A stretch of DNA of 32,331 bases from a candidate division WWE3 bacterium RIFCSPHIGHO2_02_FULL_38_14 (lineage in GTDB: Bacteria; Patescibacteriota; WWE3; UBA101185; UBA10185). Where the stretch lies: positions 1 to 32,331 of the forward strand of contig MEVD01000007.1 in assembly GCA_001772865.1 (NCBI GenBank). The letters are read 5' to 3'. The translations under genes were made by a program, and so were the position numbers. Shown here piece by piece: positions 8,409 through 31,043 of this stretch; the first letter of the stretch is position 1, and every line of letters starts with the position of its first letter. Below the pieces are notes generated by a model. It made no database searches. It was not told the DNA's origin and worked only from the letters and a program-made list of their open reading frames with translations.

Positions 8409-8453
8409 TTTTCAGGAGTAGGTTAAGCAAGCAATTTCTCCCTCTCCTGAAAA
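8409..8453 (+). promoter_or_regulatory. Leader hairpin before the 8470 gene
   Basis: A perfect 10-bp inverted repeat, TTTTCAGGAG (8409-8418) and CTCCTGAAAA (8444-8453), encloses 25 bases in the predicted 5' leader. The Shine-Dalgarno (GGAAAGGA) follows directly, so folding may influence ribosome access. Confidence 0.5.
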
Positions 8454-8469
8454 GGAAAGGATAAGAGAA

Positions 8470-8709
8470 ATGGCTTGCGAGATGTGTTGGCACCCCGAGG
8501 CATCCTCGCACAACGAGGGTTGCCCTCTTTCTGGTGGAAGCCAGGAGGAATTCGATCGCGGGTGGTGTGTGGCTTTGGAAGGCTACGTCCTTCTGTGGTA
8601 TGAGCTAATGCACTATTCGGCCTCGTTTCAACTGGGATATCGTGCCGGCAAGGCGGAAATCAACCACCTTGTTGACGCAGCAGTCGAGAGGAGGTTTTAC
8701 GACGAATAA
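8470..8709 (+). CDS. Small Cys/His-rich protein, possible zinc binder
   Basis: 79 residues. The N-terminus CEMCWHPEASSHNEGCPLSGG places three Cys and two His within about 20 residues, consistent with a small metal-binding motif. The rest is helical and ends in acidic residues. I do not recognise the family. Codon usage is clearly more GC-rich than its neighbours. It is a one-gene unit with its own promoter, structured leader, Shine-Dalgarno and terminator. This organisation is shared with the genes at 11222 and 15164. Confidence 0.65.
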   Translation: MACEMCWHPEASSHNEGCPLSGGSQEEFDRGWCVALEGYVLLWYELMHYSASFQLGYRAGKAEINHLVDAAVERRFYDE

Positions 8710-8767
8710 GGGAATGCCAACAAAAAAAGCCCGATCCGGACAAAACATCCGCCTGGACCGTGCTTTA

Positions 8768-8838
8768 CCTAAGCAAATCAGCTAAACTGGTTTATTTAGG
8801 ACAAGAAGCGACTCGGAAACGGGTCGTTTTTTGTTTTT
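8768..8838 (+). terminator. 3' hairpin and intrinsic terminator of the 8470 gene
   Basis: A first hairpin, CCTAA...TTAGG with inner AAA/TTT and CAG/CTG pairs, spans 8768-8800. The terminator proper is CGACTCG-GAAA-CGGGTCG (8809-8826) followed by TTTTTTG and more T. Confidence 0.8.
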
Positions 8839-25431: not shown

Positions 25432-25722
25432 TTAGCGGAAAAGCAGCGCTCGCGCTAATTTGTGTGCCCATGAAGCAGATTCCAACCTTTTTCCTTCTTC
25501 TTTGGCTTCCTCATTGCTGTAGTATGCGGCAGTCACTACAGCAAATGTTGCGTAGAGTATGAGGAAGGTCAGGAAAAAGGGTTCTAAGCTAACTCTCCAC
25601 GTTCTGGTCTCAGAGAGACTATTCCAGAACGTCAAGAGAAAACCAGGGATTCCGAGGATGGATAACCCATTGGCCAGGATTCTGGCCACGTCATCCCGGA
25701 TTGTACGCGTATCATTTTTCAT
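25432..25722 (-). CDS. Small two-helix membrane protein
   Basis: 96 residues. Two hydrophobic segments (about 15-35 and 45-66) with a short external loop, then a charged helical tail. No family recognised. ATG 25722 has GGGAGG 7 bases upstream; the GTG at 25728 would have it only 1 base away, so the ATG is chosen. Codon use is GC-richer than the neighbours. It is a single-gene unit with promoter, SD and 3' hairpin. Confidence 0.65.
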   Translation of the reverse strand: MKNDTRTIRDDVARILANGLSILGIPGFLLTFWNSLSETRTWRVSLEPFFLTFLILYATFAVVTAAYYSNEEAKEEGKRLESASWAHKLARALLFR

Positions 25723-25747
25723 ATTCACGCCTCCCGAGAAGATATTG

Positions 25748-25782: not shown

Positions 25783-25839
25783 CGATTATTTAATAAAAAT
25801 AATTTTGATCTTGATGATAAATAACCCAATAATATCTGC

Positions 25840-25845
25840 TATAAT
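25840..25845 (+). promoter_or_regulatory. Extended -10 promoter of the ncRNA candidate
   Basis: TGCTATAAT (25837-25845) is an extended -10 element. No good -35 box is found. Transcription would begin near 25852, at the first base of the closing stem of the RNA. Confidence 0.5.
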
Positions 25846-25851
25846 TCTTGC

Positions 25852-25997
25852 AAAGGTTAGTTGCGAAGAGTTGAAATAAGGGAAAGTTTGACCGGTTTAC
25901 TCCCCCGTGGCCGGTCACTCTAGACGGCAGGAGTATCCGCCCCCGGTACCTGCCGCCAAATTCCCGTCGCTCGCGCAACTAGCCTTTCGCTTTTTTT
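25852..25997 (+). ncRNA. Candidate structured ncRNA with two C-rich hairpin loops
   Basis: About 146 bases with no coding potential. A 14-bp closing stem (25852-25865 with 25974-25987, one G-U) brackets the molecule. Inside, GGGAA (25880-25884) pairs with TTCCC (25961-25965), and TTTG (25887-25890) with CAAA (25957-25960). Two hairpins follow: GACCGG/CCGGTC (25890-25895, 25911-25916) with loop TTTACTCCCCCGTGG, and CGGCAGG/CCTGCCG (25925-25931, 25949-25955) with loop AGTATCCGCCCCCGGTA. A T7 run follows the closing stem after CGC, so the stem can also act as terminator. It does not show the marks of tmRNA, RNase P RNA or SRP RNA. Confidence 0.65.
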
Positions 25998-26056: not shown

Positions 26057-26146
26057 TATGCCAACGATACGGCTGAGCCGTGCGGTTGGTTCCGTTTGCA
26101 CTATGCTAATGATGCGACTTCGTCGCGCGTTGATCCCACTCCGATA
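26057..26146 (+). repeat. Two tandem 45-base hairpin units with covarying stems
   Basis: Unit A (26057-26101) and unit B (26102-26146) align from TATGCYAAYGATRCGRCT onward. The inner stems are ACGGC-TGA-GCCGT in A and GCGAC-TTC-GTCGC in B, i.e. paired changes that keep the helix. Both have the same GAT/GCG internal loop and an outer CAAC/GTTG or TAAT/GTTG stem. The tRNA-Met gene starts one base after unit B, and its 5' end (TACGCCAACG) resembles the unit start. Confidence 0.6.
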
Positions 26147-26147
26147 C

Positions 26148-26223
26148 GCCAACGTAGCTCAGGGGTTAGAGCGGGCGTTTCATAAGCGCTAGGTCGGTGG
26201 TCCGAGTCCACCCGTTGGCACCA
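26148..26223 (+). tRNA. tRNA-Met (elongator; anticodon CAU), CCA encoded
   Basis: The acceptor GCCAACG pairs perfectly with CGTTGGC. The D stem is GCTC/GAGC, the anticodon loop TTCATAA, and the T stem GGTGG/CCACC. The first pair is G-C and the anticodon stem lacks three G-C pairs, so it is not an initiator. The GTAGCTCAG D-arm context resembles elongator tRNA-Met; tRNA-Ile2 (lysidine-modified CAU) cannot be excluded. The T loop is TCCGAGT, with C where the nearly universal U55 should be. Confidence 0.92.
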
Positions 26224-27615: not shown

Positions 27616-27656
27616 TTCCCGTGTTGCGAGTTAAGTTGTAATTGCGTGCAGATAAT

Positions 27657-30600
27657 ATGATTTTATTTAATCAAAATAACCAGAATAATCAGAAAGACGA
27701 CGAGAAGGAGAAAGCCGGCCAAAAAGAAATGCCTAAACACGGAAAACCCGGTTCCGCGATGAATAAAAAGATCAGCAGATCTCCTATAAATCCTCAGAAA
27801 ATGTTTAAGCAGGCAAAAAATCCCCAAAGCATATTCAACAATATATTCTTTTACATATTTCTGATGTTGTTTGCCTACATTATTTTCAGTTCTTTTTTTC
27901 AGAATAATATAGGAACTGATAAAAAACCTATTTCCGATCTGGTCCAGCTTATTAATGAGGACAAGGTGCAGAATATAACTGTTGCAGGCGATTCCATTGA
28001 AGTACAACTTAAAGACGGTTCGGAATTTACAACCGAAAAAGAAACTTCTATCAGCTTTGACGATATTTTGAGCAATAACAATGTGGACAGGAGCAAAATC
28101 GCAGGCGAGATAAAAGTGGAGCACAGAGTAGGCCTGGAGGATATTTTGTCGCCTATCTTGATGATCGGGCTGCCGCTTCTATTAATCTATTTTATTTTTA
28201 GGCAGATGAGAGGTGCAAGCAGCGACATATTTTCTTTCGGCAAGTCGCGCGCCAAGCTGTTTAACAAAGGAATGTCCAAGATTAACTTTCAGGATGTTGC
28301 CGGAAATGAAGAAGCCAAAACCGAAATGATGGAGATAGTGGACTTTTTAAAGAATCCCGAAAAGTACAGAAAACTTGGAGCCCGAACACCCAAAGGTATT
28401 TTGCTAGTTGGTCCTTCAGGGGTAGGCAAAACGTTACTGGCAAAGGCAATCGCCGGAGAAGCTGAAGTGCCGTTTTTCAGTGTTGCAGGAAGCGAATTTA
28501 TGGAAATGCTGGTGGGGGTAGGTTCTGCAAGAGTTAGGGATTTGTTTTTGATGGCTAAAGAAAGCCAGCCGAGCATGATATTTATAGATGAAATTGACGC
28601 GATAGGAAGGCAGCGGGGTATGGGAATAGGCGGAGGGCACGACGAAAGGGAGCAGACGTTAAATCAGATTTTAATCGAGATGGACGGATTTGATGTTAGA
28701 ACGGATGTGATTGTAGTGGCGGCATCGGTTACAGGCGAAACTCCGGTTATGATAAGAAAAAACGGGATGGTTAGTTTAAAACCCATTTCGGAAGTAATAG
28801 ATAGTTATTTTGAATCATTTGAAGAGGGAGAAGAAAAACCATCGTCTGATTTGGAAGCGTTGTCTTACAAGCAAAATGGAACATCAATTGTTTCCAAGTT
28901 TACAAGTGTCAGAGGTGTATTCAGACATAAGGTTAATGAAATATATGAAATAAATTACATCGGTGGAAAGGTGAGAACTACTGGCAATCACTCAGTTTTT
29001 ATTTGGAGTGGCAATGCAGTTGTCGCAAGACCGGTGTCTACTCTTAAAAAGGGTGACGTACTGGTAGACATTACTCCTAAAAAGTTTGATGATTTAGAAA
29101 ACGATAACGATGTTACTCTTTTTGAACGCTATATTAGAACATATCCGGAAAATAAGGAACTTACGCAAAGATATGAATATGTTATGGCTAACAAGGGAAT
29201 AATTTCTCAAGAGAAGCTCGCCGAAGAAACAGGGTTTGCACAGACTACGATATCGTTATGGCATAGAGGAATTAACATTCCCAGAGGGTTAAGCAGAAAT
29301 TATTATTTTGATGTTATTGATGAAGATATAAAAATTACACCTGATCTAATGCGGTTATTTGGATATTACACGGCCGAAGGATATGCAAGAAAAGAAATAG
29401 ATTTTTGTTTTAATGAAAAAGAGGAAGAATATCTTGAAGATGTGCGAAAGTTAATGCTTGATAATTTTGGCCTATTGCCTCAAATGGAAAGAAGATCAAC
29501 TAAAAATGCCGTTAATCTTATTTATCAATCTAAACCTATCGCGAACGTATTCAAAACCTATTGCGGATCCGGTTCAAAGAACAAACATGTACCTGAATTC
29601 TTATTCGAGGCCCCGTTTATTTACTATAAGGAATATTTAAAAGGGGTAGCTCGGGGAGATGGCCACATTGATAAAAAAGGAAGACTTGCGGTTACATCAG
29701 TGAGTAGGAGGTTGGTAACTGAGTTATTGTGGTTGAGCAGGATTCATGGTGTAAAAGCTTCGGTATCCAGTTTTGCGACTTTAGAAGGCAGGAGAATATC
29801 AGGCGGAAAGCCGTTACATTCTTCTATTGCATATAGAATACAATTTGGTAAATATTATAATCTTCTAAGCGATGAGGACAGAAAATATATTAAATACTCA
29901 ATAAAAAAGCCGGTTATAAAAAGTATAGAAAAACTTCCTTATGACGGGTATGTTTATGATTTCTGCGGTTGTGAAAATGAAGCATTCTTCATTGGTAATA
30001 GCCCTGTTTTAGGTCACAATACAAACAGACCAGATATGTTAGATCCCGCATTAATCCGCGCCGGAAGGTTTGACAGAAAAATTACCATTCCTTTGCCTGA
30101 TTTAAAAGACAGAGAAGAAATAATTAAAATTCATATGCGCGGAAAGCCGTTTTTGAAGGATGTCGATATTACCAAGATTGCTAAAAAGACGGTTGGGTTC
30201 AGCGGAGCCGATATTGAGAACATGTTAAATGAGGCGGCCATACTGGCAGCACGTGTAGGCAGGGTGGAAATATCCGCAGAGGATGTAGATGAAGCGTCAC
30301 TGAAAGTGACAATGGGTTCCGAGAGAAAAACTTTGCAGTCGGAACAGGAAAGGAAAATAACTTCATATCATGAGTCCGGGCACGCTTTGGTTGCCACTTA
30401 TGTTCCGGAAATGGATCCTGTGAATAGAGTTTCAATAGTTGCCAGAGGCGGTTCGCTTGGTCATACAAGCTTTCCTCCCGAAAGAGACCGATACAATGAA
30501 ACTAAAACCAGGCTCCTTTCGCTGATTAGCACAATGCTTGGAGGTCGCGCAGCCGAAGAAATAGTTTTTAACGAACTAACCGTAGGTGCGGCTGACGATA

Positions 30601-31043
30601 TTGAAAGAGCGACAAAATTAACCAGAAAAATGGTAACGGAATTTGGTATGAGCTCTTTGGGTCCAATATCATACAACGGCAAAGATAATAATTTTTGGCT
30701 GGCGAGAGAACTGGGCGAAACGCCTTCATACAGCCAGGAAATGGCTGCTAAAATTGATGCAGAAGTAAAGAGAATAATTGACGAATGTTACTCCAGGGCG
30801 AAAAGTATTTTAAATGAGCACAGAGAAAAATTAAACAGCGTTTCGGAAGTTTTGTTGCAGAAGGAGACTTTGGATGGAGATGAATTCCTTCAGCTGGTAA
30901 AAGGTGGAGGGAAAGATGGAGAAAGGAAAGAAGTGGATAAGCATGAGGAGAGAATGAAAGCGGAGGAAAATGATAAAAAGCCAGAAGTAGAAAAAGAAGA
31001 AAAGAAAGAAAATGAAAAGGAAGTTTTCAGTCTGAGCAGTTAA
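27657..31043 (+). CDS. ftsH: ATP-dependent zinc metalloprotease FtsH with in-frame intein
   Basis: 1128 residues as translated from ATG 27657 (TTG 27642 is an alternative); about 696 after removal of the intein (28725-30020). Membrane-bound AAA+ protease that degrades unassembled membrane proteins and regulators. An Asn/Gln/Lys-rich N-terminus precedes two transmembrane helices (about residues 60-80 and 165-185). Next come Walker A GPSGVGKT (near 252), Walker B SMIFIDEID, the SRH TNRPDMLDPALIRAGRFDR after the intein, and zinc site HESGH (near 905) with DIERAT downstream. The acidic, Lys/Glu-rich tail is typical. The intein splits the sensor-1 segment VVAA|TNRPD, so the unspliced protein should be inactive. 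Confidence 0.96.
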   Translation: MILFNQNNQNNQKDDEKEKAGQKEMPKHGKPGSAMNKKISRSPINPQKMFKQAKNPQSIFNNIFFYIFLMLFAYIIFSSFFQNNIGTDKKPISDLVQLINEDKVQNITVAGDSIEVQLKDGSEFTTEKETSISFDDILSNNNVDRSKIAGEIKVEHRVGLEDILSPILMIGLPLLLIYFIFRQMRGASSDIFSFGKSRAKLFNKGMSKINFQDVAGNEEAKTEMMEIVDFLKNPEKYRKLGARTPKGILLVGPSGVGKTLLAKAIAGEAEVPFFSVAGSEFMEMLVGVGSARVRDLFLMAKESQPSMIFIDEIDAIGRQRGMGIGGGHDEREQTLNQILIEMDGFDVRTDVIVVAASVTGETPVMIRKNGMVSLKPISEVIDSYFESFEEGEEKPSSDLEALSYKQNGTSIVSKFTSVRGVFRHKVNEIYEINYIGGKVRTTGNHSVFIWSGNAVVARPVSTLKKGDVLVDITPKKFDDLENDNDVTLFERYIRTYPENKELTQRYEYVMANKGIISQEKLAEETGFAQTTISLWHRGINIPRGLSRNYYFDVIDEDIKITPDLMRLFGYYTAEGYARKEIDFCFNEKEEEYLEDVRKLMLDNFGLLPQMERRSTKNAVNLIYQSKPIANVFKTYCGSGSKNKHVPEFLFEAPFIYYKEYLKGVARGDGHIDKKGRLAVTSVSRRLVTELLWLSRIHGVKASVSSFATLEGRRISGGKPLHSSIAYRIQFGKYYNLLSDEDRKYIKYSIKKPVIKSIEKLPYDGYVYDFCGCENEAFFIGNSPVLGHNTNRPDMLDPALIRAGRFDRKITIPLPDLKDREEIIKIHMRGKPFLKDVDITKIAKKTVGFSGADIENMLNEAAILAARVGRVEISAEDVDEASLKVTMGSERKTLQSEQERKITSYHESGHALVATYVPEMDPVNRVSIVARGGSLGHTSFPPERDRYNETKTRLLSLISTMLGGRAAEEIVFNELTVGAADDIERATKLTRKMVTEFGMSSLGPISYNGKDNNFWLARELGETPSYSQEMAAKIDAEVKRIIDECYSRAKSILNEHREKLNSVSEVLLQKETLDGDEFLQLVKGGGKDGERKEVDKHEERMKAEENDKKPEVEKEEKKENEKEVFSLSS
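28725..30020 (+). mobile_element. Intein with LAGLIDADG homing endonuclease, inserted in ftsH
   Basis: 432 codons in frame. It begins with Ser1 (SVTGETPV, block A) and ends SPVLGHN (block G, penultimate His, terminal Asn), followed by Thr as +1 residue. Joining the flanks gives VIVVAA-TNRPDMLDPA, the normal FtsH sequence. Block B is TTGNHSVFI. The endonuclease core has two LAGLIDADG helices, LFGYYTAEGY (near intein residue 210) and YLKGVARGDGHI (near 304). A helix-turn-helix-like insert, SQEKLAEETGFAQTTISLW, lies before them. All key splicing residues are present, so both splicing and homing may be active. Confidence 0.93.

Follow-up and report, generated by a model that had tools for sequence, protein, structure and literature searches.

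The question raised by this locus is whether a GC-rich, strongly folding stretch encodes a small RNA in its own right and, if so, what its two C-rich hairpin loops might contact. The window, by which we mean the whole 32,331-nt stretch of DNA analysed, had been described from its letters alone in an original prediction that placed an unassigned structured ncRNA at 25837-25997. That assignment is borne out by the feature check, the Rfam search, the fold z score and the shuffling controls. The elements of the locus, referred to below as the twin C-loop RNA, are as follows.

25837..25845, + strand: extended -10 promoter element TGCTATAAT, from the sequence, with the start of transcription predicted at about 25851-25853
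25850..25865, + strand: 5' arm of the closing stem, GCAAAGGUUAGUUGCG, from the fold
25880..25884, + strand: GGGAA, 5' arm of the inner helix, from the fold
25889..25917, + strand: hairpin 1, with a UCCCCC loop at 25901-25906 that is freely open (cost about 0)
25925..25955, + strand: hairpin 2, with a C5 run at 25940-25944 that the best fold leaves partly paired (opening about 1.2 kcal/mol)
25961..25965, + strand: UUCCC, 3' arm of the inner helix, from the fold
25974..25990, + strand: 3' arm of the closing stem, CGCAACUAGCCUUUCGC, from the fold
25991..25997, + strand: U7 tract abutting the closing stem, from the sequence, a probable intrinsic terminator end

Both the extended -10 element and the T7 run that had been claimed are present at these positions, and the folded RNA begins about 7 nt 3' of TGCTATAAT. 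Within this genome the motif TGNTATAAT has 40 non-coding and 23 coding copies (0.202 versus 0.014 per kb), which makes it 15 times denser outside genes. The sequence TGCTATAATTCT lies upstream of the twin C-loop RNA and recurs ahead of a second orphan RNA, rod-like in shape, on contig C1; a search 5' of TGCTATAAT found no good -35 element at normal spacing. On the + strand no gene body covers the locus, and the RNA stands isolated from same-strand genes. Mechanically called ORFs overlap it on both strands and look spurious, in keeping with the earlier statement that there is no coding frame, which is right for the + strand read as an RNA. The next features downstream on the same strand are tRNA-Met (26148-26223) and then trpS, a name given from sequence and from family-wide matches. 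At the level of sequence, the locus thus carries its own promoter, a stable fold and a stem followed by a U tract, with no same-strand gene, as an intrinsically terminated sRNA would, and 25850-25997 (+) is probably a real, free-standing, transcribed orphan sRNA gene.

The fold itself is far more stable than composition would give. The RNA of 25837-25997 reached -62.4 kcal/mol with a z of -4.48 (25850-25997 likewise), and 0 of 200 shuffles were as good. For 25850-25990, the native -61.2 kcal/mol compares with a mean of -40.9 (sd 3.8) among dinucleotide shuffles, none of 5,000 being as good. A closing stem of at least 14 pairs appeared in 38 of these 5,000 shuffles and two hairpin loops with CCCC in 16, while only one combined two C-run loops with a closing stem of 10 pairs or more. 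Across 6,440 non-coding 150-nt windows, from scans that covered about 99% of the genome, as stretches, two CCCC loops were found at four loci. Three of these fold weakly, at -19 to -35 kcal/mol, leaving the twin C-loop RNA as the only strongly stable fold of this kind.

Several details of the fold differ from the earlier description. The closing stem is present but comprises 16 pairs with one bulged C (arms 25850-25865 and 25974-25990) rather than the 14 bp reported. It opens into an internal loop that is asymmetric, with 14 nt on one side and 8 nt on the other and some weak additional pairing, beyond which the GGGAA/UUCCC helix forms as described; the TTTG/CAAA pairing that had been joined to it lies outside the minimum-energy fold and competes with the base of hairpin 1. 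Both GC-rich hairpins exist. Hairpin 1, UGACCGGU...GCCGGUCA, exposes its UCCCCC loop fully, as claimed, whereas in hairpin 2 (CGGCAGG...CCUGCCG with a C5 run) the best fold is CCG-CCCC-CGG and leaves the C run open only in part.

Rfam was searched at gathering and relaxed thresholds, and only tRNAs scored above cut-off. No known family with a settled role was matched, which upholds the original view of the RNA as unassigned. The nearest family was 6C RNA (RF01066), at 21.3 bits against a cut-off of 47 (E 1.9), in an alignment that spans both C hairpins with five C instead of six and several broken pairs. The 6C model at E <= 5 gave no match in 45 genomes of the class, the window's own included. 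The score therefore falls short of membership, and the likeness in layout is real: the 6C/B11 RNAs of Actinobacteria also have two adjacent GC-rich C-run hairpins (here with UCCCCC and CGCCCCC loops) and an intrinsic-terminator end. However, the C runs are five long here and at least six in 6C, as its name implies; the hairpins, unlike those of 6C, are enclosed by the 16-pair closing stem and inner helix; and the terminator is the closing stem here but a C-loop hairpin in B11. The hosts are of different kinds, and no intermediates connect them. Among C-rich-loop sRNAs of Gram-positive bacteria, unpaired C runs are candidate seeds. The twin C-loop RNA shares such runs with them but matches none in sequence or family. 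These Gram-positive sRNAs have been remarked on (PMC12395582). A retron-type ncRNA was also considered, on account of paired ends, and set aside; no reverse transcriptase was present among the neighbours read.

The same architecture invites comparison with 6S RNA (RF00013), which likewise has a long closing stem, an open internal loop or bulge, a distal arm and a U tract. The locus could accordingly encode a stable structural or protein-binding RNA, such as a diverged 6S-like decoy of RNA polymerase, laid out as closing stem, 14/8-nt asymmetric internal loop and distal domain. Neither the Rfam model nor a class-specific model found a 6S RNA in the window's family, so the 6S job may be vacant there. 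Two 6S RNAs were found in genomes of the same class, both on the - strand (L061 1501-1658 and L062 1501-1656); they score 39.6 and 33.2 bits, below the Rfam cut-off, and are clearly alike. Their clear consensus is absent from the twin C-loop RNA, which neither 6S model matched (the Rfam model not even at E 10); its branched twin-hairpin distal arm is unlike 6S, and the other members of the window's family lack the twin C-loop RNA as well. We therefore regard a structural or decoy role of this type as unlikely.

Relatives were sought at several levels. A DNA search of 57 genomes matched the twin C-loop RNA only in its own genome, and phage and plasmid collections gave no match to it in a DNA search. 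The covariance search in related genomes, to which the original prediction had looked for support, did not provide it: a model built from the single sequence recovered only the genome of origin from the 45 genomes of the class and the 380 of the phylum. Four weak matches of that model (13.8-17.2 bits) were discarded because their alignments, partial or composite, failed to preserve both C loops in the context of the complete structure. A class-wide pattern of CCCCC-gap-CCCCC-gap-T6 occurred roughly as often as in the reversed control, with only the window folding into twin C loops, and the exact 16-mer of hairpin 1 had eight matches in viral contigs, all in unrelated GC-rich sequence. In 18 relatives the region around trpS held no comparable RNA, although tRNA-Met upstream of trpS is a common arrangement in the family, whose genomes measure 0.6-1.1 Mb. 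The nearest relatives compared belong to other genera of the same family, and their TrpS identity does not exceed 73%. For scale, 6S RNAs from two genera of the class retain 79% identity over 67 nt (E 3e-9), and a conserved RNA of such size should therefore have been detected; this detectability rests on one control, the 6S pair. Since the searches returned only the window or chance matches, the twin C-loop RNA is, as judged from sequence, lineage-restricted among the genomes compared, and without a homologue in the genomes tested there is no covariation.

Such isolation also fits a young or decaying foreign element, a GC-rich orphan island that includes the neighbouring gene, folds well and has no function in the host. 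The GC content is 57% in the RNA and 47% in the divergent neighbour, an orphan gene at 25432-25728 encoding a 98-aa membrane protein, against 34% for the genome; neither has a credible homologue in the 45 class genomes, and the genome contains many further GC-rich orphan blocks. Nevertheless, the promoter-like element, the near-perfect closing stem and the U7 tract are all intact, a high GC content is also usual in the structured RNAs of AT-rich genomes, and the phage and plasmid collections are silent. On balance a functionless import seems rather doubtful to us, with somewhat more in its favour than the 6S-like role.

The divergent gene had also been named, as the 25722 gene, as a target of loop 1. 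The CUCCC of this loop is complementary to the GGGAG of that gene's ribosome site, and the raw duplexes of the two loops with its leader reach -13.9 and -17.5 kcal/mol. Together with the adjacency of two GC-rich orphans, these energies would favour an antisense-type regulator of 25432-25728, on the model of divergently arranged type I toxin-antitoxin pairs. However, the GGGAGG site is buried in the fold of the gene's own leader, and because it is hidden there the net pairing energy is only about 0 to -1 kcal/mol. The RNA and the gene do not overlap, and their complementarity is limited to short, loop-size pairing. Control of this neighbour by the twin C-loop RNA is thus unlikely by the modelled energies, and an antisense pair of the toxin-antitoxin kind is very improbable.

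Wider pairing with G-rich ribosome sites was the general idea of the original prediction. In mycobacteria the C loops of B11, the 6C RNA, repress by pairing with G-runs at ribosome sites, and this direct pairing is backed by compensatory mutations in loop and target (PMC10470900, PMC12395582); the same pairing is proposed here. Loop 1 opens at a cost of about 0 and the C run of loop 2 at 1.2 kcal/mol. Accessibility-corrected scoring, based on a crude longest-ORF gene set with approximate start sites, gave a handful of good ribosome-site partners. The best was GGGGCG of C3:82777-83223, accessible at -9.6 kcal/mol net; GGGGGUG of C11:6179-6724, whose protein has a start resembling that of a secreted protein, is well complementary and accessible at -9.1 kcal/mol net. 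Ribosome-site windows as a class were not enriched (9 predicted targets at -7 kcal/mol or below versus 10-19 within or upstream of genes), and shuffled loops were roughly as good at pairing with leaders as the native ones. With few good partners and no enrichment, a small regulon is possible on the modelled energies, which lend no support to a general anti-Shine-Dalgarno role.

Our preferred reading, to which we tentatively give a probability of about 40%, is a free-standing, intrinsically terminated and lineage-restricted sRNA gene of about 138-146 nt that acts in the manner of 6C/B11 on a few G-rich mRNAs. The closing stem would protect the RNA and form the terminator, the twin C-run loops would serve as seeds for a few mRNAs that carry G-runs, and pairing may block or destabilise these targets, by analogy with the C loops of actinobacterial 6C/B11. 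On this reading the resemblance to 6C would be convergent. The fuller proposal is of a reduced-genome bacterium that silences a small regulon with G-run ribosome sites through twin C loops displayed on a closed three-way frame, evolved independently of actinobacterial 6C. This proposal is decidedly improbable as it stands; were 6C-like action true, twin C-loop regulation would have been invented independently. At present this is a single orphan sequence without conservation. Literature searches turned up no work on small regulatory RNAs among Patescibacteria/CPR bacteria, the group to which the genome sizes in its family provisionally assign this genome, and a compact, well-delimited candidate with mutable loops offers a practical entry point to them.

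Other structured or GC-rich stretches were noted in the same genome. The orphan rod-like RNA of contig C1 (L091, 11795-11885, - strand) is 91 nt long, folds at -0.5 kcal/mol per nt, and has TTGACA-TGCTATAAT upstream and a T7 run after it; its sole Rfam matches, to microRNA models, fall below cut-off and are not credible. On contig C8 (L097, 3819-4150, + strand), a GC-rich structured stretch behind TTGACA-17-TATATT has ends that pair (GUGUC-GGAUAGAC with GUCUAUCC-GACAC) and is followed by a long terminator hairpin; Rfam gave no credible match for it. GC-rich orphan blocks in this 34% GC genome include window positions 8411-8791, contig C8, C14:71571, C22:5461 and C3:112271, and several resemble short genes behind strong GGAGGTGA ribosome sites. 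Within the window, 26060-26140 contains two GC-rich hairpin units that resemble each other (ATGCCAACGATACGGC... and ATGCTAATGATGCGAC...), without another copy in the genome, immediately 5' of tRNA-Met. At 27642-31043, as read from the translation, an FtsH-like protein is apparently split by an intein with a homing-endonuclease-like region.
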